Origin: Sphingomonadales bacterium
GTDB taxonomy: Bacteria > Pseudomonadota > Alphaproteobacteria > Sphingomonadales > Sphingomonadaceae
Reading direction: 5' to 3'
NCBI GenBank assembly: GCA_018971065.1
Contig: JAGWVC010000026.1
Span: forward strand, 1-42,538
Length of the DNA stretch: 42,538 bases
The translations under genes and the position numbers were made by a program. A model generated the notes under the pieces. The model was not told the origin of the DNA. It ran no database searches and was given only the letters and a program-made list of their open reading frames with translations. Positions 9,497 through 24,582 of the stretch are shown one piece after another; position 1 is the stretch's first letter; each line of letters begins with the position of its first letter.

Positions 9497-10228
9497 TCAG
9501 CCGCGCAATTCGGCACCCATGTCGGCAAGTTCCCGGCCAAGCGCCGTAACTTCGACAGGGGTGAGCGCGCCCGAGAACACCGAGGCCGAGACCGCGAATT
9601 CGGCAAACGGTTCCGGCAGTGCCACCGCCACCGAGCATACCCCGGCGAAGGCCGCGCCATCGTCCATCGCGAAGCCGCGCTCGCGCGCCTCGCCCACTTC
9701 GGCGACATAGCGCGCCAGCGACACCGGCTGCTGCCAGCGCAGCCCCGCAAACAGGGCCGTCAGTGCCGCATCGTCCAGCCCCTGCGCGGCGGCCAGCGCG
9801 CGCCCGACCGCCCCGCCCCCCAGCGGCTGGCGCTGGCCATCGGCCAACTGGATGCGCATCGGCGCGTCGCTCTGGGCGTGGGCGATCAACCGCAGGCGAT
9901 TGCCCGGCACGACCTTCCACAGGCCGCATGTGGTGGCGTGGCGACGGGCGAAGCGCACCATTGCCGGACGCAGGCTGTCGATCACATGGCGGGCGCGACC
10001 CGCCCTGAACAGGTCGGCAGCGGCCCATTCCGGAGTCAACCGATAGCGTTTCCCCCGGGCATCCCGCTCGATCACGCCTTCGTCCACCAGCGTGCGCAAC
10101 AGGTTCAACCCGCTCGACGGGCTGAGGCCGAGCGCCCGGCCGATGTCGGACAGGCTGAGCGGGCTGGTTTCCGCCAGCAGGCGAAGGATGGCGAAAGCCT
10201 GCGCGACAGAGCGTACCGAAGCGGTCAT
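9497..10228 (-). CDS. IclR-family transcriptional regulator
   Basis: A 243-residue regulator. The N-terminal winged helix-turn-helix spans about residues 5-65 (LSLSDIGRALGLSPSSGLNLLRTLVDEG region). The C-terminal effector domain contains the LPLGGGAVGRAL-like stretch typical of IclR proteins. It converges with the ligase (6-base gap) and diverges from the acyl-CoA dehydrogenase operon. The start MTASVRSVAQAF at 10228 has no visible Shine-Dalgarno site. A -10 hexamer ends only 6 bases upstream of the ATG, so the mRNA is predicted to be leaderless. A palindrome inside its promoter suggests autoregulation. The ligand is probably a pathway acid or CoA ester (inference). Confidence 0.9.
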   Translation of the reverse strand: MTASVRSVAQAFAILRLLAETSPLSLSDIGRALGLSPSSGLNLLRTLVDEGVIERDARGKRYRLTPEWAAADLFRAGRARHVIDSLRPAMVRFARRHATTCGLWKVVPGNRLRLIAHAQSDAPMRIQLADGQRQPLGGGAVGRALAAAQGLDDAALTALFAGLRWQQPVSLARYVAEVGEARERGFAMDDGAAFAGVCSVAVALPEPFAEFAVSASVFSGALTPVEVTALGRELADMGAELRG

Positions 10229-10234
10229 CGCGGC

Positions 10235-10263
10235 ATCATAGTTTTCATGTATATGAAAATCAA
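10235..10263 (-). promoter_or_regulatory. Promoter of the IclR gene with embedded 18-base palindrome
   Basis: On the minus strand TTGATT (10258-10263) and TATGAT (10235-10240) are separated by exactly 17 bases. The spacer is almost filled by a perfect inverted repeat, TTTTCAT-GTAT-ATGAAAA on the plus strand (10242-10259). A transcription start 7 bases past the -10 box falls on the A of the IclR ATG. Binding at the palindrome would block RNA polymerase, so IclR autorepression with control of the divergent operon is the simplest reading. Confidence 0.65.
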
Positions 10264-10382
10264 TTCTTGATGTTGAAAATATCGGCCGCGTGCGATAGAC
10301 CGTCGTCCGACAGGCGGAACTGACCGCCCGCACCGATTCCCGCCCTATGGCGGCACGGTTCGCAATTCGAGGGATGCCCGGC

Positions 10383-11564
10383 ATGGCCACCATCAACCCC
10401 GGCATGGACGCCGACGTTTTCGAACAGTTCATCGAGCAACTGCGCCGCTATGTGCGGGAACGGCTGGTGCCAGCGGAAGCGGCGGTGATCGAAACCGATG
10501 CCGTGCCCGAGGACATCGTGCAGGAAATGCGCGACATGGGCCTGTTCGGCCTGACCACGCCCGAGGAATTCGGCGGCGCCGGCATGAACATCAGCCAGTA
10601 TGCCCGAACCGTGCACGCGCTCAGCTATGCAATGCCGGCGTTCCGCTCCACGGTGTCGATCAACATCGGCATGTTCTGCTCGGCGCTGAAGAACGGCGGC
10701 ACCCCGGAACAGAAGGCCGAATGGCTGCCGCGTGTCGCGGCGGGCGAGATCACCGCGTTCGGGCTGACCGAGCCGGGTTCCGGCTCCGACTCGGCGGGCA
10801 TGCAGACCACCGCCACCAAGGTGGATGGCGGCTGGGTGCTGAACGGCACCAAGCGCTACATCACCAATTCGCCCACCGCGAAGATCGCGCTGATCATGGC
10901 GCGCACCAGCAAGGAGGCGCTGCCCCGGAACGGGCATGTTTCCGCCTTCATCGTGCCGATGGACACACCGGGCATTGCGATCGGCAAGACCGACAAGAAG
11001 ATGGGGCAGGCCGGCAGCACCATCGCCGACATCATCCTTGAGGACGTGCATGTGCCCGACAGCGCGCTGCTGGGGGGCGAGACCGGCAAGGGCTTCATCT
11101 ATGCGATGAAAAGCCTGGACAACGGCCGCATCTCGGTGGGCGCGGCGGCCACGGCCTATGCCAAGCGCGCGCTCGATTCCGCCATCCGCTATGCCACCGA
11201 GCGCAAGGCATTTGGTGAGCCGATCGCCAACTTCCAGTTGATCCAGCAAATGCTGGCCGATTGCGAGATCGAGATCTACGCCGCCGAATGCATGATGGCC
11301 GACGTGACGCGCCGCGCCGACGCCGGTGAGAACGTGCTGCGCAAGGCGGCGGCGTTCAAGGTGTTCGCCAGCGAGATGTGCGGGCGCGCGGTCGATCGCT
11401 GCGTGCAGGTCTATGGCGGCGCCGGTTATCTGGCCGAATACGATGCCGAGCGCTTCTTCCGCGACGCCCGCGTCTATCGCATCTACGAGGGCACCACTCA
11501 GATCCTGCAATTGCAGATCGCCAAGCATATGCTGCGCGAGTTCAATTCCGGCATCTGGGAGTAA
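10383..11564 (+). CDS. Acyl-CoA dehydrogenase
   Basis: A 393-residue FAD enzyme of usual family length that introduces a 2,3-double bond into an acyl-CoA. Features are the N-terminal helical domain, LTEPGSGSDSAGMQTTA (FAD contact), YITNSPTAKIAL, and the C-terminal RIYEGTTQILQLQIAKHML segment with the catalytic Glu (E369). Start 10383 (MATINPG) has GAGGG 9 bases upstream; MPGM at 10374 is the alternative. First gene of the rightward operon divergent from IclR, with only 5 bases to the next gene. Chain or ring specificity cannot be judged. Confidence 0.93.
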   Translation: MATINPGMDADVFEQFIEQLRRYVRERLVPAEAAVIETDAVPEDIVQEMRDMGLFGLTTPEEFGGAGMNISQYARTVHALSYAMPAFRSTVSINIGMFCSALKNGGTPEQKAEWLPRVAAGEITAFGLTEPGSGSDSAGMQTTATKVDGGWVLNGTKRYITNSPTAKIALIMARTSKEALPRNGHVSAFIVPMDTPGIAIGKTDKKMGQAGSTIADIILEDVHVPDSALLGGETGKGFIYAMKSLDNGRISVGAAATAYAKRALDSAIRYATERKAFGEPIANFQLIQQMLADCEIEIYAAECMMADVTRRADAGENVLRKAAAFKVFASEMCGRAVDRCVQVYGGAGYLAEYDAERFFRDARVYRIYEGTTQILQLQIAKHMLREFNSGIWE

Positions 11565-16405: not shown

Positions 16406-16438
16406 ACGGGGCGGCCTGAACCGTCGGCAGCGGTTCAG
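16393..16438. terminator. Tandem hairpins between convergent genes (bidirectional terminator candidate)
   Basis: Two perfect inverted repeats abut. GCCGCCCCGTT-G-AACGGGGCGGC (16393-16415) is centred on the SDR stop codon. CTGAACCG-N7-CGGTTCAG (16416-16438) covers the stop codon of the convergent TetR gene. Neither has a long T run, so termination would be through hairpin strength or Rho. Confidence 0.55.
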
Positions 16439-17082
16439 CGCGGGGCAAGGCTGGCCTGCAAACCGCCCAGCACGAATTCGGCAACGGCGGCGTGAATATC
16501 ATCGGGGCTGCCCCAGCCTTCGGGGAACAGCCAGTCCTGGAATATCTCGCTCGACAGGATCGCGCCGAACGCGATGCAGGCGACCAGGCCAGGATCGACG
16601 CGCGGGGTGCCTTCGGTGCGCGAGCGGACGATGTCGGACGTCTTTTGCAGATAGCGGTGCAGGCCCGCCACCTTGTCGATGCCGTTGACGTCCTCCGGCT
16701 CGAACGCCTTCGACATGACCAGCAGCAGGATCGCATCGGCCTGATCGCGCAGGAAGGCCTGCATTTCGCCAATGTACTGCGTGCTGACAGTGCGGCGGTT
16801 GCCTTCGGTGTCGATCGGGTGCGAATCCGCAAACGCCGCGAAATGCTGTTCGATGGCGTTGAATACGGTGTCGTTGAACAGATTGGCCTTCGAGCCGAAG
16901 TGCTTGAACAGCAGCGTTTCGCTGACCCCGGCGCGCCGGGCAATATCGGCGGTCTTGGCGCGGCTGAAACCGTTGTGCCCGAATTCCTCGCTGGCCGCAT
17001 CCTTGAGTCGTTCGACGACTTCCCGGCCCGACCGGCGGCGCGCGGGTTTGGCGGCAGGATCGGGACGAGAGGCGGCAGGCAT
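16435..17082 (-). CDS. TetR-family transcriptional regulator (TetR-1)
   Basis: A 215-residue repressor-type protein. Helix-turn-helix residues are about 42-63 (KTADIARRAGVSETLLFKHFG). The C-terminal ligand domain is not assignable. The start MPAASRPD at 17082 is preferred because AGGGA lies about 8 bases upstream; in-frame ATG and other codons further upstream lack this. It is divergent from the Rieske operon, and its own promoter spacer contains the AGTAGT-N4-ACTTCAC motif that recurs upstream of the SDR/Zn-ADH operon. It therefore probably represses itself, the oxygenase and that operon. Confidence 0.9.
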   Translation of the reverse strand: MPAASRPDPAAKPARRRSGREVVERLKDAASEEFGHNGFSRAKTADIARRAGVSETLLFKHFGSKANLFNDTVFNAIEQHFAAFADSHPIDTEGNRRTVSTQYIGEMQAFLRDQADAILLLVMSKAFEPEDVNGIDKVAGLHRYLQKTSDIVRSRTEGTPRVDPGLVACIAFGAILSSEIFQDWLFPEGWGSPDDIHAAVAEFVLGGLQASLAPR

Positions 17083-17183: not shown

Positions 17184-17211
17184 ATTAGTGAAGTAACCAC
17201 TACTCTATCAA
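17184..17211 (-). promoter_or_regulatory. TetR-1 promoter with embedded operator motif
   Basis: On the minus strand TTGATA (17206-17211) and ACTAAT (17184-17189) are 16 bases apart. The spacer holds AGTAGT-N4-ACTTCAC (plus strand 17188-17204, GTGAAGT-N4-ACTACT). This is an imperfect palindrome with four of five inner pairs matching. The motif is 29 bases upstream of the Rieske GTG start, so it lies in the divergent promoter too. The same 17-base pattern recurs at 23797-23813. Confidence 0.6.
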
Positions 17212-17232
17212 TAAGCAGGGGAGGCCCGGTCG

Positions 17233-18444
17233 GTGAACACACACGCCAGGATTCCGGCCAGCGACGCGGCGCTGACGGCGCTGGGCAAGGGGCCGGTGCC
17301 TACCGCGCCCTATCACGATCCGGCCTGGTTCGAACTGGAGCGCGAGGCGATCTTCAAGCGCACCTGGTTGCAGGTCGGCCACGTCTGCGAACTACCGGAA
17401 CCCAACAGCTACATCGCCCGCGAGATCGAAGTGGCGCGCGCTTCGGTGATCATCGCGCGCGGCAAGGATGGCACGATTCGCGCGTTCCACAATGCCTGCA
17501 CCCATCGCGGCACCCAACTGGTGCAGGGGCAGTGCAGCGGCAAGGGCGCCACGTTCCGTTGCCCCTATCACATGTGGACGTTCGGCACCGACGGCCGGCT
17601 GCTGTCCGCCCCCGATTTCGAGAGCTTCCATCTGGCCAACAAGGCGCAGGCTGACTTGCGCCCCGTCTCGGTAGATGTCTGCGCCGGGCTGATCTTCATC
17701 AACCTCGATCCGGCACCCGCGCAATCGCTGCGGGAATTCCTGGGGCCGATGGGCGAGATGGCGCAGACGCTGCCGGTGGCCGGGGCCACCACCTTCGATG
17801 AATACGTCTACGAGATCGACGCCAACTGGAAGGTGACGTTCGACAACTTCCAGGAGAATTACCACCTGCGTTTCGTCCATCGCCGCACCAATGGCGCGCC
17901 GCCACTCGATTCGACGCCGAATCCGTACAACTATCCCGAATGCTACTACCTGTTCGGGCCGCACCGGATGAACACCAGCCCCGGTGGTGCCCCGCCGGAT
18001 GACAAGCCCAAGCCGCTGGCGTTCTACCTGCTGGGCAAGCTGGCCGAGCAGGTGAAGGCCGACGGGCAAGCGGGCGGCCCGCATGAGCGCGACTATTTCA
18101 TCTTCTTCCCCAACCTCTACCTGTTCGGCAACCCGCGCATGCACTTCACCCACGTGGTCATGCCGATCAGCGCCAACCGGTCGCGCGGGGTGTTCCGGTT
18201 CTACTGGACCGGGGAGGACCGCACCGCGACCGAACAACTGGTGCGCGAATTCTCGATGGCGTTCGCGCGCGAGATCCACACCGAGGACGTCGAACCGCTG
18301 ATCGCCGCACAGAAGGGGCTGGACAGCGGCGCGCTGGAGCATGTCCATTTCCAGCGCCAGGAAGTGATGTGCCGGCACTTGTACGAAGCGACCGTGGCGG
18401 CGGTGCGGGACTGGCAGGCGGAACAAGCGGGAGCGGCATCATGA
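17233..18444 (+). CDS. Rieske non-haem iron ring-hydroxylating oxygenase, alpha subunit
   Basis: A 403-residue oxygenase component. The Rieske [2Fe-2S] ligands are C89-T-H91 and C110-P-Y-H113. The mononuclear iron ligands are H211 and H216 in NYHLRFVH, with D352 in the HTEDVEPLIAAQKGL segment as the likely third. GTG start with GGGGAGG about 8 bases upstream. No beta subunit, ferredoxin or ferredoxin reductase is encoded nearby, so electrons must come from elsewhere or from the flavoenzyme two genes down. The substrate may be an aromatic, alicyclic or steroid-like ring. It overlaps the following small gene by ATGA. Confidence 0.93.
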   Translation: MNTHARIPASDAALTALGKGPVPTAPYHDPAWFELEREAIFKRTWLQVGHVCELPEPNSYIAREIEVARASVIIARGKDGTIRAFHNACTHRGTQLVQGQCSGKGATFRCPYHMWTFGTDGRLLSAPDFESFHLANKAQADLRPVSVDVCAGLIFINLDPAPAQSLREFLGPMGEMAQTLPVAGATTFDEYVYEIDANWKVTFDNFQENYHLRFVHRRTNGAPPLDSTPNPYNYPECYYLFGPHRMNTSPGGAPPDDKPKPLAFYLLGKLAEQVKADGQAGGPHERDYFIFFPNLYLFGNPRMHFTHVVMPISANRSRGVFRFYWTGEDRTATEQLVREFSMAFAREIHTEDVEPLIAAQKGLDSGALEHVHFQRQEVMCRHLYEATVAAVRDWQAEQAGAAS

Positions 18445-18794
18445 GCAACGCGACGACATTGCCCGCCGGGTTCGCCGCGCTGGAAGCGTTCGTGCCGTTC
18501 TGGGCAGCCGGCACATTGGCGGGGCGCGACGCCGCGCGATTGAACAGCACGCCCGAAGAACGGCAGCGGTTCTACACCGTTGCAGGCGAGCTGGCGCCGG
18601 CGGCGATGGACTATCTCGATGCGCGTGAACTGGCATCGTTCACCCCGCCCGAGCGGACGCTGATGAACCTGATGCTGAGCCTGGCCCACGTGGCGCTGGC
18701 GGTGGAATTGCAGGGCGACGACGAGGCCATCCATGCCTTCGGCGCGCGCCGGATGCCGATCGTGCGCGGCCACGCCGACCCTGCGGTGGCCTGA
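18441..18794 (+). CDS. Small protein coupled to the Rieske oxygenase, unknown function
   Basis: A 117-residue, probably all-helical soluble protein without signal peptide, membrane segment or metal-binding Cys. Its ATG lies in the last codons of the Rieske gene (ATGA overlap), so translation is coupled and expression stoichiometric. The middle stretch (STPEERQRFYTVAGEL, ERTLMNLMLSLAHVALAVEL) resembles small uncharacterised proteins that I recall next to Rieske oxygenases in proteobacteria. Possible roles are oxygenase assembly or stabilisation, or substrate binding, but nothing in the sequence proves one. Confidence 0.75.
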   Translation: MSNATTLPAGFAALEAFVPFWAAGTLAGRDAARLNSTPEERQRFYTVAGELAPAAMDYLDARELASFTPPERTLMNLMLSLAHVALAVELQGDDEAIHAFGARRMPIVRGHADPAVA

Positions 18795-18830
18795 CGAACA
18801 ATCAGAACAGATCATCGGGAGAGCAAGACC

Positions 18831-20951
18831 ATGTCGAAATATCCGCACCTGCTGTCGCCGGGGAAAATCGGGACGCTCGAAATCCGCAACCGGCTGGTGC
18901 AGACCGCGATGGGCACCAACCTGGCGCTGCCCGGCGGCTACTTCGGCGACGCGTTGATCGCGTATTACGAGGCGCGTGCGCGGGGCGGGGTCGGCATGAT
19001 CATCACCGAAGCGGTCTCGGTGGGATGGCCGAATGGCGCGGCACTGTTCAACCAGGTGGCGGTGTCCGACGACAAGTACATCCCGGGCCTACGGAAGCTG
19101 GTTCGGGCGGTTCAGCAGCATGGCGCGAAAATCGCGCTGCAGCTCCACTTCGGCGGCATGAACGCCGCGCGCGACATGATCGACGGACGCGACGTGTGGA
19201 TTCCGTCGATGCCACTGCCGCCCAAGGGCAAGGGCTTCGCCGGGGCGCTCTACCCGGACGAGGCGGCGCTGACTCAGGGCGCGAAGATCACCAGCCCGCC
19301 GAAGTTCAAGGAAATCGGCGCGCCGGAAATCGCGCAACTGATCGAATGGTTCGCCGCCGGGGCGCTGCGGGCGAAGCAGGCGGGCTTCGACGGGGTCGAG
19401 ATTCACGGCGGCCACGGCTATATCATCGCCGGGTTCCTGTCGCGCGGCAGCAACCGCCGCAGCGACGACTATGGCGGTTCGATTGAGAACCGCGCTCGCC
19501 TGCTGCGCGAGATCACCGAGGCGGTGCGTGCCCGTGTCGGGCCGGATTATCCGATGTGGGTCAAGCTCGATTCGGCCGAATTCTTCACCGACAACGGCAT
19601 CACCACCGAGGAAGCGGTGTACTTCGCGCAAGTGGCCGAAGCCGCCGGCGCCGATGCCATCACCGCCACCGCCAACCACGACGTCTCGGTGGCCAAGGCG
19701 CTGATCAGTTCCTACTTGCCGCATGAACCGGCCAAGCTGATCCCTTATGCCGCCCCGATCCGCGCTGCGATCAACATCCCGGTCATCACTGTCGGTCGCA
19801 TCGACCCTGAAGTGGCTGATCAAGCCATCGCCGACGGCAAGTTCGATTTCATGGCGATGGGCCGCAAGCAACTGGCCGATCCGGACTATGCCAACGCGCT
19901 GGCGCAAGGGCGCGATCAGGTGCGGCCGTGCATCGTCTGCTACACCTGCTTTTCGCAGGCGATGCTTGCCTCGCCGCTGCGCTGTGCCGTGAATGGCGAT
20001 CTCGGCTATGAAACGGCGGGGCTGCTCGACCGGACCGACAGGCCGAAGCGGGTGGTGGTCGTCGGTGGCGGCCCCGGCGGCATGGAAGCGGCGCGGCGGC
20101 TGACGCTGCGCGGCCACCGCGTCACCCTGCTGGAAGCCGCCGCCCAGCTTGGCGGCACCGCCCGGATTGCCGCGATCGCCTATGCGCCGAATGGCGATTT
20201 CGTCGAATGGCTGAAGCGGCAGCTCCGGCAGTTGCAGATCGATGTGCGGCTGAACACCCGCGCCACGGTGGAAACGATCCACGCGCTGTCGCCCGATGCC
20301 GTTGTCGTCGCCACGGGTGCGATCCGCCGCGCGCCGGAGATCACGGGCAAGCGCCTGCCGCACGTCCACGACGGCCAGTCGCTGCGCGCGATGCTGCTGG
20401 GTGAGGAAGCCGAAGGCGGCACCAGCAAGGCCACGCTGGGCCAGAAACTGGCGATGGGCGCCGCCCGCGCCGTGGGCCTGACCGACAGCCCGGAAGCGGT
20501 GCGCAAGGCCAGCAGGCTCTACATGCCGATCGGCGACAGGGTGGTGATCATCGGCGGCGAACTGGTCGGCATCGAACTGGCCGAGTTCCTCAATGAGCGC
20601 GGGCGCCATGTCACCGTGGTAGACGACCTTGCGCAACTGGGCCGGGGGCTTTCCCCGGCACGGCGCGCGGTGCTGCTGGACGAACTGCCCGAACACGGCA
20701 TCGTCTTCCACGCCGGGGCGGCCGACATCGCGATCGGCGACAAGGCGGTGACCTTCACCGCCGCCGACGGCAGCGCCCAGGCGCTGCCCGCCGACACCGT
20801 CATCATCGCCAAGGGCGCGGAAACCAACACCGGCCTGCACGATGACCTGGTGGCCGCCGGCATCGATGCCCGCATGGTCGGCGACTGCCAGGGCGTGGGC
20901 TACATCCTTGGCGCGGTGCGATCGGCGGCGGATGTCGCGGCGGCGATCTGA
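18831..20951 (+). CDS. 2,4-dienoyl-CoA reductase-like NADH:flavin oxidoreductase (OYE domain, 4Fe-4S, FAD/NAD domain)
   Basis: A 706-residue enzyme with three cofactor regions. Residues about 1-340 are an Old Yellow Enzyme FMN barrel (SRGSNRRSDDYGGSIENR motif). Cysteines C367, C370, C373 and C385 form the 4Fe-4S binding site. From about residue 400 follows an FAD/NAD(P) domain (VVVVGGGPGGMEAARRL, then VVIIGGELVGIELAEF). Such proteins reduce conjugated double bonds in acyl-CoAs or cyclic enones. GGGAGAG precedes the ATG. Following a Rieske oxygenase it could reduce an unsaturated ring product, or its FAD/FeS centres might feed the oxygenase (speculative). Confidence 0.92.
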   Translation: MSKYPHLLSPGKIGTLEIRNRLVQTAMGTNLALPGGYFGDALIAYYEARARGGVGMIITEAVSVGWPNGAALFNQVAVSDDKYIPGLRKLVRAVQQHGAKIALQLHFGGMNAARDMIDGRDVWIPSMPLPPKGKGFAGALYPDEAALTQGAKITSPPKFKEIGAPEIAQLIEWFAAGALRAKQAGFDGVEIHGGHGYIIAGFLSRGSNRRSDDYGGSIENRARLLREITEAVRARVGPDYPMWVKLDSAEFFTDNGITTEEAVYFAQVAEAAGADAITATANHDVSVAKALISSYLPHEPAKLIPYAAPIRAAINIPVITVGRIDPEVADQAIADGKFDFMAMGRKQLADPDYANALAQGRDQVRPCIVCYTCFSQAMLASPLRCAVNGDLGYETAGLLDRTDRPKRVVVVGGGPGGMEAARRLTLRGHRVTLLEAAAQLGGTARIAAIAYAPNGDFVEWLKRQLRQLQIDVRLNTRATVETIHALSPDAVVVATGAIRRAPEITGKRLPHVHDGQSLRAMLLGEEAEGGTSKATLGQKLAMGAARAVGLTDSPEAVRKASRLYMPIGDRVVIIGGELVGIELAEFLNERGRHVTVVDDLAQLGRGLSPARRAVLLDELPEHGIVFHAGAADIAIGDKAVTFTAADGSAQALPADTVIIAKGAETNTGLHDDLVAAGIDARMVGDCQGVGYILGAVRSAADVAAAI

Positions 20952-20974
20952 AGCCGTGGCGCCTGAAGCCCGGG

Positions 20975-21787
20975 TTAGAACCCGAAGCTGCTGACCATGC
21001 CGCCATCGACCAGCACGTCGGTGGCGGTGATGAAGCTGGCGCCCGGTGAGCACAGGAACACCGCGACCGAGGCCATCTCCTCGGGCCGGGCGATCCGGGC
21101 CACCGGCTGGTTGGCGAGCATGGTGTCGAGGTTGGGGCTGTGCGCGCGTTCGCTGGCCACCATCGCCGTGTCGGTCGCCCCCGGCGAGATCGAGACGATG
21201 CGCGCGCCGCGCGCGCCGAACGCCTTGGCCTCGCGCTTGACCAGTTGCATCACGCCGTACTTCGACAGGGGATAGGCAACGATGCCATCGGGGCAATGCA
21301 CGGCCAGCGCCGCCACGCCGTCGGCGGTGGTGGTGGTGCGGCAGGCGGCGGCGGCTTCCGGGGGCAGCGGGAAATAGGCCGAATTCGACGCGATCAGCAC
21401 CGCCGCTGAACCATCGGCCATGTGGTCGCGCAAGGCATCGACCAGCCGGATCGAGGCGGCAAGGTTGATGTCGAGGATCGCCGCCGGATCGCCGCCGCGC
21501 GGGCCGACCCCGGCGGTGTGGACCAGCGCGGCGATGCCCCGGCCGTCCAGCGCGGCCACGACCCGTGCCGGATAATCGGCAGCGGCGATGTTGCCGGCGA
21601 GTACCGCGACGCGGGTGCCCGACGCACGCACGCTGTCGGCCAGCACCGCAAGCCGGTCGGCATCGATGTCGCACAGCAGCAGGTCGGCATAGCCCGCCGC
21701 CGCCAGCGCGCGTGCCGATGCCGAACCCATGCCGCCGGTGGCCCCGGTGACGATGGCGATGCCGCTGGCGTGGTTGCGTTGGCTCAT
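20975..21787 (-). CDS. Short-chain dehydrogenase/reductase
   Basis: A 270-residue SDR with TGATGGMG (residues 14-21), CDID at the end of strand 2 suggesting NAD, a TAG motif in place of NNAG, and catalytic Ser (SNS, about 134-136), Tyr (Y172) and Lys (K176). The C-terminus ends in the common VDGGMVSSFGF. Start 21787 (MSQRNHAS) has GGGAGGA upstream; the longer reading begins inside that ribosome site. Third gene of the leftward SDR/Zn-ADH/SDR operon, converging with the OYE gene. Alcohol/ketone substrate unknown. Confidence 0.9.
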   Translation of the reverse strand: MSQRNHASGIAIVTGATGGMGSASARALAAAGYADLLLCDIDADRLAVLADSVRASGTRVAVLAGNIAAADYPARVVAALDGRGIAALVHTAGVGPRGGDPAAILDINLAASIRLVDALRDHMADGSAAVLIASNSAYFPLPPEAAAACRTTTTADGVAALAVHCPDGIVAYPLSKYGVMQLVKREAKAFGARGARIVSISPGATDTAMVASERAHSPNLDTMLANQPVARIARPEEMASVAVFLCSPGASFITATDVLVDGGMVSSFGF

Positions 21788-21813
21788 GGTGTGGTCCTCC
21801 CGTTCACGTCCGG

Positions 21814-22824
21814 TCACGCCACCGCGAGGGCGACCTGGACCTTGTTTTCCGAATTGGCGCCGAGCAGCCGCGCGAACGTGGCGGGGAACTGGTCGAGCGC
21901 GACGACACGGCTGATCATCACCTTGGGATCGACATGGCCGGCCAGCATGGTGCGCGCCGAAAATTCAAAATCCTGGCGCGAATAGCCGACCGGGAATTGC
22001 AGGCTGACGCCCTTGAAACCGGCAATGGCGGGGACAATCGGGTCAGGCGTGGCGCAGAAGCCCAGCGACAGCACCTTGCCCATCAGCCGCACGTGGTCGA
22101 TCGCCCTGGCCACCATGCCCGGCACGCCCACGCATTCCAGCACGATGTCCGGCGCGCCGCCCAGCGCTTCGGCCACTTCGGCGCGCTCGTGCTCGCCATA
22201 GCCGACGAAGGCATCCGCGCCCATCGCCTGCGCTATCCCGGCCCGGCGGGGCGAGCGCGACATTGCCACGATCCTGCCTGCACCCAGCCGGCGCGCCCAG
22301 TAGATCGCGCTCAGCGCGATGGTCCCGGCGCCCAGCACCAGCACGCGATCCCCCGGCTGGATCGCGGCACGCCGGATACCATAGAGCGAGACCGTCAGCG
22401 GTTCGACCAGCGCGCCGTCGGCCGCGGTCAGACCATCGCCCAGCGGGATCGCCGCAGCGGCAGGGAGCCGGGCGAATTCGGCGAAGCCGCCGAGGATGCG
22501 CGTGGCCCCCGGACACAGAATCCAGTTGCCCGCCGCACAGGCCTCGCAGTGCCCGCAACCCACCGCCGGAAACGCCGCCACGCGCTGGCCGACGCGCAAG
22601 CCCGATACCCCGCTGCCGACTTCGACGATCCGCCCGGCGAACTCATGCCCCATCACCATGCCGCCCGCAAACGCGCGGGGCGGGCCGTCGTTCAGGTGCA
22701 GTTCGCTGCCGCAGATGCCACAGCGCTCCACCGCCACCAGCACCGAGCCGGCATCGCATTCGGGTTCGGGCCGGTCCTCGATCCGCAAGGCTTGCTGCGA
22801 GCCATAGCAGACGGCGGCTTTCAT
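21814..22824 (-). CDS. Zinc-dependent medium-chain alcohol dehydrogenase
   Basis: A 336-residue MDR-family enzyme. Catalytic zinc ligands are C38 (CGICGS) and H60-E61 (MGHEF). Structural zinc is bound by C90, C93, C96 and C104. The NAD(P) fold has VLVLGAGTIALSAI. It oxidises a secondary or sugar-type alcohol to the carbonyl or the reverse. The ATG overlaps the stop of the upstream SDR (ATGA, 22821-22824) and 26 bases separate it from the next SDR, so the three are one operon. Two SDRs plus an MDR imply several consecutive hydroxyl/ketone conversions. Confidence 0.92.
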   Translation of the reverse strand: MKAAVCYGSQQALRIEDRPEPECDAGSVLVAVERCGICGSELHLNDGPPRAFAGGMVMGHEFAGRIVEVGSGVSGLRVGQRVAAFPAVGCGHCEACAAGNWILCPGATRILGGFAEFARLPAAAAIPLGDGLTAADGALVEPLTVSLYGIRRAAIQPGDRVLVLGAGTIALSAIYWARRLGAGRIVAMSRSPRRAGIAQAMGADAFVGYGEHERAEVAEALGGAPDIVLECVGVPGMVARAIDHVRLMGKVLSLGFCATPDPIVPAIAGFKGVSLQFPVGYSRQDFEFSARTMLAGHVDPKVMISRVVALDQFPATFARLLGANSENKVQVALAVA

Positions 22825-23711
22825 CCCCGGGCTTCGGCCATCAGCGGGTTCTGCATCCGCGCGCGCTTGTCGGCGAATTCCGGCGTGCCCGGGATCGGTT
22901 CGGCGGGGTTGAACAGCGGCGAGATCGGCGTTTCCGCCAGCGCCGCCAGCATCCGCGCGTGGCGCTGCGCCACCGGCACGATATATTCGCCATGCGTGAA
23001 GATGTAGAGCCGATCGGCCAGGATGCCCTGCACCACCATCTCGCCCACATGGGCGGCATCCATGCCGAAGCCCTTGGGCAGTGCCACCGCCGGCAGCCCC
23101 ACCAGCCGGTTGGTGCTGTTGGCCAGGTTGGTCTCGATCACCCCGGGGCACAGCACCGAAACGCCGACATCGAACCGGGCAAGCTCCTGCCGCAGCGATT
23201 CCGACATGGCGACTACACCGAATTTGGCGGCGCAATAGGCGCCGACGCTGGCGCTGGTGATCACCCCTTGCGTGGACGAGGTGTTGACGATGTGGCCCTC
23301 GCGCCGATCCGCCATCCCCGGGCCGAACGTGCGGATGCCGTTGAACACGCCGACGAGGTTGATGTCGATCATCCGGTCGAAGCTCTCGGGCGACTGGTCG
23401 ATCAATCCCCGGTCACCGAACGTGCTGTTGCCTTCGTTCATGATCCCGGCGTTGTTGGCCAGAATGCCGACCGGGCCGAACGCCGCTTCCACCGCCGCGC
23501 GTGCATCGGCCCATTGCTGGCGATCCCGCACGTCGAGCAGCAGGCCGATGACGTCGCCTGCCGATCCCGCCACCGCCGCGTCCAGCGCATCGCGGTCGAT
23601 GTCGGCCAGCGCCACGCGGCAACCGCGCGCCGCCAGCGACCGGCCGATCGCCAGGCCGATGCCGCTGGCCCCGCCGGTCACGAATGCCGTCTTGCCCGCG
23701 ATCGCTTTCAT
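22821..23711 (-). CDS. Short-chain dehydrogenase/reductase with C-terminal extension
   Basis: A 296-residue classical SDR: TGGASGIG (12-19), ADID for NAD binding, NNAG (86-89), Ser in NTSS (145-146), Y159 and K163. About 40 extra C-terminal residues follow a region reading LYIFTHGEYIVPVAQRHARML, a pattern common in a sphingomonad/actinobacterial SDR subgroup. ATG start at 23711; an upstream in-frame reading would cross the operator at 23797-23813 and is rejected. First gene of the SDR/Zn-ADH/SDR operon. Confidence 0.9.
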   Translation of the reverse strand: MKAIAGKTAFVTGGASGIGLAIGRSLAARGCRVALADIDRDALDAAVAGSAGDVIGLLLDVRDRQQWADARAAVEAAFGPVGILANNAGIMNEGNSTFGDRGLIDQSPESFDRMIDINLVGVFNGIRTFGPGMADRREGHIVNTSSTQGVITSASVGAYCAAKFGVVAMSESLRQELARFDVGVSVLCPGVIETNLANSTNRLVGLPAVALPKGFGMDAAHVGEMVVQGILADRLYIFTHGEYIVPVAQRHARMLAALAETPISPLFNPAEPIPGTPEFADKRARMQNPLMAEARG

Positions 23712-23796
23712 GCGCCCCCCTCCCCGGAACCCCGGCGGCGCCCCCAATCGGGATGCCGCGCTGCACTTTTGCCCGACGCTGCATTGGCGAACGGTT

Positions 23797-23813
23797 GTGA
23801 AGTGGTGACTACT
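23797..23813. promoter_or_regulatory. Second copy of the TetR-1 operator motif
   Basis: GTGAAGT-N4-ACTACT followed by TATC, the same pattern as at 17188-17204, located about 86 bases upstream of the SDR start at 23711. The N4 spacer differs (GGTG here, AACC there) while both arms are identical, as expected for a dimeric repressor site. Confidence 0.6.
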
Positions 23814-23877
23814 TATCGCGAGGCAGATCGTTGTGCAAGGCTGCGTCCAGCGAACGCCCGCCACTGCCATCGGGCGC

Positions 23878-24582
23878 TCAATCCAGCTCGATCGGCTCGT
23901 TCAGGCGTTCGGCGGCGCGCACCAGCCGCAGCACGCAATCGACGTGGAAATTGACCACGCGATCGTACGTGTACGAATCGGGGTGGTCCGAATTGATCAC
24001 CGTGCTGGTGCGGAACCAGCCGCCGGCCCCGGCCAGCATCCGCGCGATGGTGCCGATCATCATGTAGACATCCATGTCCGGGCGGAACAGCCGCGCCCGC
24101 ATCCCGTCCAGCAGGATCGCCTCCTGCAGCTTGAAGGAACGGGTCTTGGCCGCCTGGACATAAGCGAATTCGGGCCGGCTGCGGAAAAACCCGCCGTCGT
24201 TGAGCAGGATCGCGTTCACGTCCCAATGCTCGATGAAGTTGCGGAAGCGGTGCTGCACGCTGGCGATCAGGCGCTGCTCGGCATTGCCCTCGATCCGCAG
24301 CAGGGCATCCTGGCTTTGCACATTGCGCTCGATCGGCGCCTTGAGGATCTCGTGAAGGATGTCCTCCTTGGTGGCGAAGTGGTGATACAGGCTGCCCGGC
24401 AGCATATCGACCCGATCGGCGATCTGCCGCACCGAGGTCGATTCGAAACCGTGCTCGGCAAACAACGCCGCCGCGGCCTCGACGATGCGTTCGCGCCGAT
24501 CGGCCGGCCGGGTCCGCCGCGCAGGCGACGTCGCGGCTGGCCGCTCGGCGGGACGGCTGGTGGAATTGACCTGTCGCGCCAT
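23878..24582 (-). CDS. TetR-family transcriptional regulator (TetR-2)
   Basis: A 234-residue regulator. A basic, disordered N-terminus (about 30 residues) is followed by a helix-turn-helix (SVRQIADRVDMLPGSLYHHFATKEDIL, about 50-77), typical of TetR proteins controlling acyl-CoA metabolism. The C-terminal domain contains a VYMMIGTIARML helix. It lies between the CoA transferase and the SDR operon, all leftward. It is the best candidate to bind the TAACCAAAC motifs at 25944-26030 (inference by position only). Confidence 0.9.
   Translation of the reverse strand: MARQVNSTSRPAERPAATSPARRTRPADRRERIVEAAAALFAEHGFESTSVRQIADRVDMLPGSLYHHFATKEDILHEILKAPIERNVQSQDALLRIEGNAEQRLIASVQHRFRNFIEHWDVNAILLNDGGFFRSRPEFAYVQAAKTRSFKLQEAILLDGMRARLFRPDMDVYMMIGTIARMLAGAGGWFRTSTVINSDHPDSYTYDRVVNFHVDCVLRLVRAAERLNEPIELD

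Follow-up and report, generated by a model that had tools for sequence, protein, structure and literature searches.

We analyzed a 42,538-nucleotide contig of a Sphingomonadales bacterium (JAGWVC010000026.1; the window) and identified two putative operators with a shared motif in front of two sets of catabolic genes that lie 6.6 kb apart. The regulator encoded beside the first operator, TetR-1, is probably a ligand-responsive repressor that acts on both sites and jointly controls one unit encoding a Rieske oxygenase and an old yellow enzyme (OYE)-type flavoenzyme, and another encoding a short-chain dehydrogenase/reductase (SDR), a zinc-dependent alcohol dehydrogenase (ADH) and a second SDR. 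TetR-1 was considered most likely to bind both sites because near-twin sites are found beside homologous tetR genes and are rare, its recognition helix matches the operator type, some of its relatives are linked to the same ADH, and the second TetR of the region, TetR-2, gave a negative result.

Two putative operators in the window

The motif GTGAAGT-N4-ACTACT was searched on both strands of the window, and exact matches were found only at 17188-17204 (GTGAAGTAACCACTACT) and 23797-23813 (GTGAAGTGGTGACTACT). With up to three mismatches the search returned four rows, one of which was the reverse reading of site 2; a shuffle control at the same tolerance gave a mean of 1.21 and a largest value of 4, with at least four matches in 3 of 100 shuffles. 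Site 1 lies in the 150-base gap between the TetR-1 gene (16435-17082, minus strand) and the GTG start of the Rieske gene (17233, plus strand), the 17-base motif being 28 bases from the Rieske start and 105 bases from the TetR-1 start. Site 2 lies between the stop of the TetR-2 gene (23878-24582, minus strand) and the start of the first SDR gene (23711, minus strand), with 85 bases from its motif to the latter. The sequence-only reading had reported the motif at these two places and held that many copies within genes would speak against it as an operator; both copies were confirmed as intergenic and as the sole exact ones, and none was located within a gene. We delimited putative operator 1 as AGTGAAGTAACCACTACTCT (17187-17206, plus strand) and putative operator 2 as TGTGAAGTGGTGACTACTTA (23796-23815, plus strand; the SDR unit is read on the minus strand). 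Each was located by the exact motif search and by a matrix from other genomes, as the second distinct site and the best site, respectively. Both sites contain an AGT-N4-ACT core (17192-17201 and 23801-23810), which occurred three times in the window against 1.39 expected, with at least three in 13 of 100 shuffles; the third core is inside the OYE gene at 19707.

Near-identical sites beside homologous tetR genes

TetR-1 (215 amino acids) carries an N-terminal helix-turn-helix domain of the TetR family (PF00440, TetR_N, 5.6e-14; 52 bits against a cut-off of 24) with the recognition helix region VSETLLFKHFGSK. Among 40 database matches there were 27 homologues at 45-72% identity (P0002-P0028), and a VSE[NT]LLF helix was shared by TetR-1 and 26 of these, the exception being P0028 with VAEALLF. 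We then compared TetR loci in other genomes (G numbers; loci are given by L numbers). The family set comprised 397 genomes centred on G016, which among 40 genomes has the RpoD closest to that of Novosphingobium sp. P6W (70% identity); the family is probably Sphingomonadaceae. TetR-1 homologues at E<=1e-12 were found in 9 of the 397, and an order-wide profile search of 366 genomes, 4 of them positive at E<=1e-30, added G938, G960 (two TetRs) and G975. No new relatives were detected in the family of G173 (7 genomes), in the genus of G734 (10 genomes) or among viral contigs. Since at most 7 (family set) or 8 (order set) candidates were scored per genome, the negatives of the homologue searches are soft. 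Four Rhizobiales loci returned by the TetR-1 query at 26-37% identity were not used as evidence.

In G502, G562 and G608, whose TetRs are 30-35% identical to TetR-1, the element TGAAGT-NNN-CACTACA adjoins the tetR stop. Measured with the consensus derived from the window at nine loci, the site by tetR had 1-2 mismatches in G502, G608 and G562 and 3 in G734. A search of the nine whole genomes for TGAAGTNNNCACTACW with at most one mismatch gave 7 places, namely one exact site by tetR and one single-mismatch site 3.5 kb off in each of G502, G562 and G608, and one extra in G608, while the other six genomes of the nine had none. Without mismatch, 5 sites were found in the 397 genomes; 3 of them were the sites beside tetR in G502, G562 and G608, and the remaining two, in G611 and G430, had no recognisable TetR gene within 3 kb. 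In G608, tetR and a P450 - ferredoxin - SDR unit flank the first site, and divergent beta-lactamase-like and enoyl-CoA hydratase (ECH) - OYE genes flank the second. At the level of sequence, the same operator-like element stands before at least two transcription units of one cluster in the window, and twice per cluster in G502, G562 and G608. These near-identical sites beside homologues with the same helix, each with a second copy in the cluster, favor the earlier proposal that both sites in the window are TetR-1 operators.

Other loci with a VSETLLF-type TetR gave weaker sites or none. The G734 site was one base off the core (AGT-N4-GCT), G960b had a weaker site, TACAGTGTTTACTACA, just past the stop codon, and the G975 TetR locus had no such site. 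Matches to GTGAAGT-N4-ACTACT in G700 (2 mismatches) and G556 (3 mismatches) were not counted as sites; those in G700 and in Novosphingobium sp. RL4 (3 mismatches) fall inside the neighboring glyoxalase-like reading frame and were set aside. The Deinococcus and M. branderi TetR loci were too distant to count, and M. branderi had only a 3-mismatch motif match. Downstream of the Deinococcus plasmid TetR (helix ISEGTLFKRY) we noted GTAAGTGACCACTGCA at L049:4674-4689, with 2 mismatches, before TolC and efflux genes; given this site, the reach of AGTG-NN-CACT operators is perhaps wider.

Recognition helix and operator type

The helix was VSETLLFRYYGDK in G502, G562, G608 and G734 and VSETLLFRYFGDK in G960b and G975. 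A second type, TEAQ[LI][FY], was present in G556, G603, G676, G700, G938, G960a and RL4, with TETQLF in G544. In this TEAQ-helix sibling clade, GATAGT-N4-ACTATC, which has the same AGT-N4-ACT core, was found in four loci (G556, G603, G700 and G938). Altogether, in 7 of the 16 comparison loci an AGT-N4-ACT palindrome pairing at 6 or more of 9 positions lay no more than 700 bases from the TetR gene; it was of the TGAAGT type in G502, G562 and G608 and of the GATAGT type in the four TEAQ loci. The 260,623 bases scanned had 10 such palindromes in all. A consensus-free search near tetR ranked the same palindromes first or second in G608, G562, G502, G556 and G603. They were not among the four listed for G700 or G938; the G700 site falls inside a called reading frame, outside the stretch scanned in this way. 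In a 28-row tree, TetR-1 with its database homologues, the VSETLLF-P450 group and the TEAQ group formed separate clades, their mutual order being open. Across the clades, a change of recognition helix appears to go with a change of the outer operator bases.

Weighing a chance repeat

We scored the window with a matrix of 8 sites from 5 other genomes, three of which are close kin and were down-weighted. The two best distinct hits were 23796 (19.4) and 17187 (10.4), or 19.1 and 7.7 with the symmetric matrix. The best scores of 60 random windows had a mean of 9.2 and a maximum of 15.3 (symmetric, 7.3 and 15.0). By this comparison site 2 is exceptional, while site 1 stands mainly on its rank.

A number of observations weigh against a shared operator, and several of them would fit a chance repeat, in which two unrelated gaps happen to agree at 13 of 17 bases. 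The window holds 605 repeated 7-N4-6 pairs, and 7.3% of 3000 dinucleotide shuffles, with gene borders from a rough set, gave a 7-N4-6 pattern that the TetR-1/Rieske gap shared with any other gap. For ungapped 17-mers the best identity was 15, a value reached in 72 of 300 shuffles. A random window typically yields a best score about as high as that of site 1, and the matrix test is not independent because its sites were first found with the consensus derived from the window. Site 1 is a weak, imperfect palindrome, with 5 of 9 positions pairing around the centre, fewer than 5 pairing in site 2 and 7 of 9 in the G502, G562 and G608 twins; site 1 was also missing from the four inverted repeats listed near TetR-1 by the consensus-free search. 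Neither gap showed a recognisable sigma-70-type promoter. Nine of the 16 comparison TetR loci, including G676, G960a, G544, G975, RL4 and M. branderi, lacked an AGT-N4-ACT palindrome of the quality defined above. G502, G562 and G608 are close kin, and the comparison loci belong to distant TetR-1 homologues, the closest (45-72%) lying in metagenome contigs outside the comparison. The reversed control of TGAAGTNNNCACTACW gave 43 places against 7 in the nine genomes and, without mismatch, about 46 (counted from the listing) against 5 in the 397; as the control was commoner, the number of matches is meaningless and only their placement counts.

Taken alone inside the window, the repeat is weak evidence and not compelling. 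The sequence-only reading had argued from identical arms in two gaps; the arms are indeed there, but the shuffles indicate that they do not suffice by themselves, and the significance of the motif comes from the comparison with other genomes, not from window statistics. We nevertheless consider a chance repeat unlikely, since the same rare element is found by homologous tetR genes elsewhere with a second copy in the cluster, and since the two top distinct hits of the matrix from other genomes are these very places.

Link to the alcohol dehydrogenase and TetR-2 as a rival candidate

Near the TEAQ-helix TetR of G556, G603, G700 and Novosphingobium sp. RL4 lies a gene for an ADH that shares 51-55% identity with the ADH of the window. 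This gene closes an operon with the order glyoxalase-like - DUF1214-like - sulfotransferase - ADH. The operon diverges from tetR in G556, G603 and G700, the last with an inserted SDR; in RL4 the glyoxalase-like gene has the same direction as tetR, from which the remaining three genes point away. Only the first two operon genes are visible in G938 before the stretch ends, and the ADH orthologue was not found in the stretches searched of G676, G960a and G544. We also noted the conserved glyoxalase-like/DUF1214-like/sulfotransferase/Zn-ADH set beside a TEAQ-helix TetR as L034, L035, L036, L048 and L054, of which L054 shows only the first two genes and L048 has another gene order. Through this ADH orthology, some relatives tie the TetR-1 type to the enzyme encoded behind site 2.

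TetR-2 (PF00440, 1.1e-17) is the upstream neighbor of operator 2, a fact that the sequence-only reading had not mentioned. The gene calls for TetR-1, Rieske, OYE, SDR, Zn-ADH and SDR were borne out by Pfam matches. TetR-2 lies directly upstream on the same strand as the SDR genes, in a layout like the TetR - site - P450 unit of G608, and could regulate the SDR unit or perhaps both sites. We rate this as quite unlikely. Homologues of TetR-2 were found in 5 of 64 genomes at E<=1e-25 with 35-39% identity, and AGT-N4-ACT was present in none of their five loci (~3.5 kb each). Its recognition helix region differs (MLPGSLYHHF), and in the loci of the TetR-1 homologues (L021-L029) nothing matched TetR-2 at E<=1e-5. 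With the same core and an ADH orthologue in the TEAQ clade, and no such association for TetR-2, the sequence comparison points to TetR-1 as the regulator of both sites.

Proposed regulation

We propose that a TetR-1 dimer would bind NGNAGT-N4-ACT-type operators at 17187-17206 and 23796-23815. When no inducer is present, it would block the Rieske - small protein - OYE unit, possibly also the divergent tetR-1 itself, and, at a distance of 6.6 kb, the SDR - Zn-ADH - SDR unit. A pathway compound would release TetR-1, so that oxygenation and oxidation of the resulting alcohol would be switched on together; derepression of this kind is the likely mechanism by analogy with EdcR and Rv3160c. Joint control would be chemically sensible because oxygenation gives an alcohol that the SDR and ADH enzymes oxidise, and the dehydrogenases may return NADH used by the Rieske oxygenase. 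A separate paper deals with the recycling of NADH for a Rieske oxygenase (PMC10579966). In this scheme we infer TetR-1 binding, repression over activation, autoregulation, the operon structure, the inducer and the chemistry.

TetR-1 could instead act on both sites as an activator or as a ligand-insensitive regulator, which overlaps with the proposal above except for the sign of control. No promoter elements were recognised by which to place the sites relative to -10 and -35, which leaves room for this alternative; we consider it very unlikely. TetR regulators of catabolic clusters are mostly repressors, which counts against it. EdcR is one such repressor (PMC8700777).

The analysis assigns a probable operator class (AGT-N4-ACT with clade-specific flanks) to a TetR group for which no description was found, and predicts the genes of an unassigned catabolic cluster that are co-induced. 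The window also offers a testable example in which a local regulator would have taken the place of another at the same enzyme. Orthogonal biosensor parts could be made from the helix-operator pairs (VSE[TN]LLF with NGNAGT; TEAQ with GATAGT).

Rieske orthologues and a possible regulator capture

Orthologues of the Rieske gene (54-58% identity) were found in 7 of the 64 genomes examined, and six of these seven were among the 12 TetR-1-type positives. The hypergeometric probability (8e-5) is indicative only, because it treats related genomes as independent and the set was hand-picked, consisting mostly of large genomes with TetR-1-positive ones added. This co-occurrence backs the link between oxygenation and alcohol oxidation drawn by the sequence-only reading. 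The distance from Rieske to TetR-1-type gene on one contig was ~19 kb in G676 and ~20 kb in G960; it was >100 kb in G700 and >700 kb in G556. Alphaproteobacteria-wide Rieske matches (E<=1e-60 in 7 of 385 genomes; 11 listed places at 34-39% identity) were too distant and were set aside.

In 7 of 9 orthologous loci (P6W, V4, G556, G603, G938, G676 and G960) the gene ahead of the Rieske gene encodes a different regulator, the P6W-type TetR; it was assigned by eye in V4 and is 47-57% identical to that of P6W in the five genome loci. Just before the Rieske gene, 6 of 9 loci have an ACAACA-N4-TGTTGT-like palindrome with 0-3 mismatches; the loci with this unrelated TetR and the palindrome are L062, L063, L066, L067, L068 and L007, mostly with T/A-run flanks. 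The two apparently form another local regulator-operator pair. The Rieske loci of G700 and G724 had neither P6W-type TetR nor palindrome, G700 giving only a 27% match on the other strand. None of the seven genome Rieske loci (L062-L068) had an AGT-N4-ACT site with at least 5 pairs. In the window there was no P6W-type TetR beyond helix-level matches, and for its palindrome nothing better than 3 mismatches, of which there were 4 against 3.7 expected. In Novosphingobium sp. P6W an SDR that is 39% identical to the first SDR of the window lies behind the Rieske - small protein pair.

As the P6W-type TetR stands before most Rieske orthologues, the window looks like a regulator swap. We see an even chance that it reflects capture, whereby the Rieske - small protein pair, which in relatives has its own P6W-type TetR, and the ADH module now stand under one TetR-1-type regulator. 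On this reading, relatives have an orthologous ADH at another place in the genome, in an operon next to a TetR-1-type regulator with GATAGT-N4-ACTATC, while matching AGT-N4-ACT operators would join both modules in the window, where the P6W-type regulator and palindrome were not found.

Genes of the two units and their surroundings

The Rieske gene (17233-18444, plus strand; 403 amino acids) has both the Rieske domain (PF00355, 1.6e-18) and the ring-hydroxylating catalytic domain (PF00848, 2.4e-30) above cut-off, as an alpha subunit does, and its best match of solved structure was the oxygenase subunit of carnitine monooxygenase. Its stop codon is overlapped by a small gene (18441-18794, plus strand; 117 amino acids) whose product had no Pfam, NCBIfam or PHROG match. 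In all 9 orthologous loci fetched this gene comes after the Rieske gene, and 7 loci of more distant Rieske genes have it too. An alignment of 8 of the 10 close sequences showed 40-55% identity to the protein of the window and 22 invariant columns. The product is a possible small partner subunit. In G556, the first pair is followed by the C-terminal part of a Rieske gene and by another full-length copy of the small partner gene (L062:219-763). The OYE / 2,4-dienoyl-CoA-reductase-like flavoenzyme follows (18831-20951, plus strand; PF00724, 5.6e-65; PF07992, 1.9e-30), and shares 34% identity along its length with the OYE encoded in the TetR cluster of G608. Behind operator 2, on the minus strand, are the first SDR (22821-23711; PF00106, 5e-48), the Zn-dependent ADH (21814-22824; PF08240, 6.3e-25; PF00107, 1.8e-18) and, as third gene, the other SDR (20975-21817; PF13561, 2.9e-29).

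Upstream of TetR-1, an IclR-type regulator gene (9497-10432) adjoins genes for an acyl-CoA dehydrogenase and a thiolase, and so hints at yet another regulator in this catabolic cluster.

Comparison with known systems

None of the best matches of a literature search concerned an AGT-N4-ACT operator or a TetR regulon that joins Rieske and ADH genes; the PheR paper (PMC13273656) is on an IclR regulator. Circuits of this type are well known as catabolic TetR regulons of several operons (the KstR/EdcR kind); the one in the window appears to have taken over an oxygenase gene that in related bacteria stands beside a different regulator. EdcR of Caenibius tardaugens is a sphingomonad TetR repressor of an oestradiol cluster; one conserved palindrome stands before two catabolic operons, and edcR and edcT have copies that are less conserved (PMC8700777). 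The operator proposed for EdcR, TnnCnnTACnAnTnGTAnnGnnA, does not resemble AGT-N4-ACT, and its targets are the edc operons. Kinship with EdcR was judged by operator sequence only, and by that measure the two differ. Nor was TetR-1 recognised as a KstR orthologue, as it reached no NCBIfam cut-off and KstR was not among its 12 listed families. Rv3160c of Mycobacterium tuberculosis likewise represses a neighboring Rieske-related oxygenase, Rv3161c, through inverted repeats, and this TetR - oxygenase pair is released by a small molecule; unlike in the window, tetR and oxygenase form one operon, the repeats are of 12 bp and 8 bp, and the excerpt of the report describes no second target operon (PMC7810876). 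The P6W-type TetR resembles TetR-1 as the neighbor of the orthologues of the same Rieske gene, but it has only helix-level similarity to TetR-1 and its own palindrome. The TetR - P450 cluster of G608, G562 and G502 has a cytochrome P450 instead of the Rieske oxygenase and a TetR that is only 30-35% identical to TetR-1, but shares with the window the VSETLLF helix, a near-identical operator and two sites per cluster, and, in G608, OYE and SDR genes among the neighbors.

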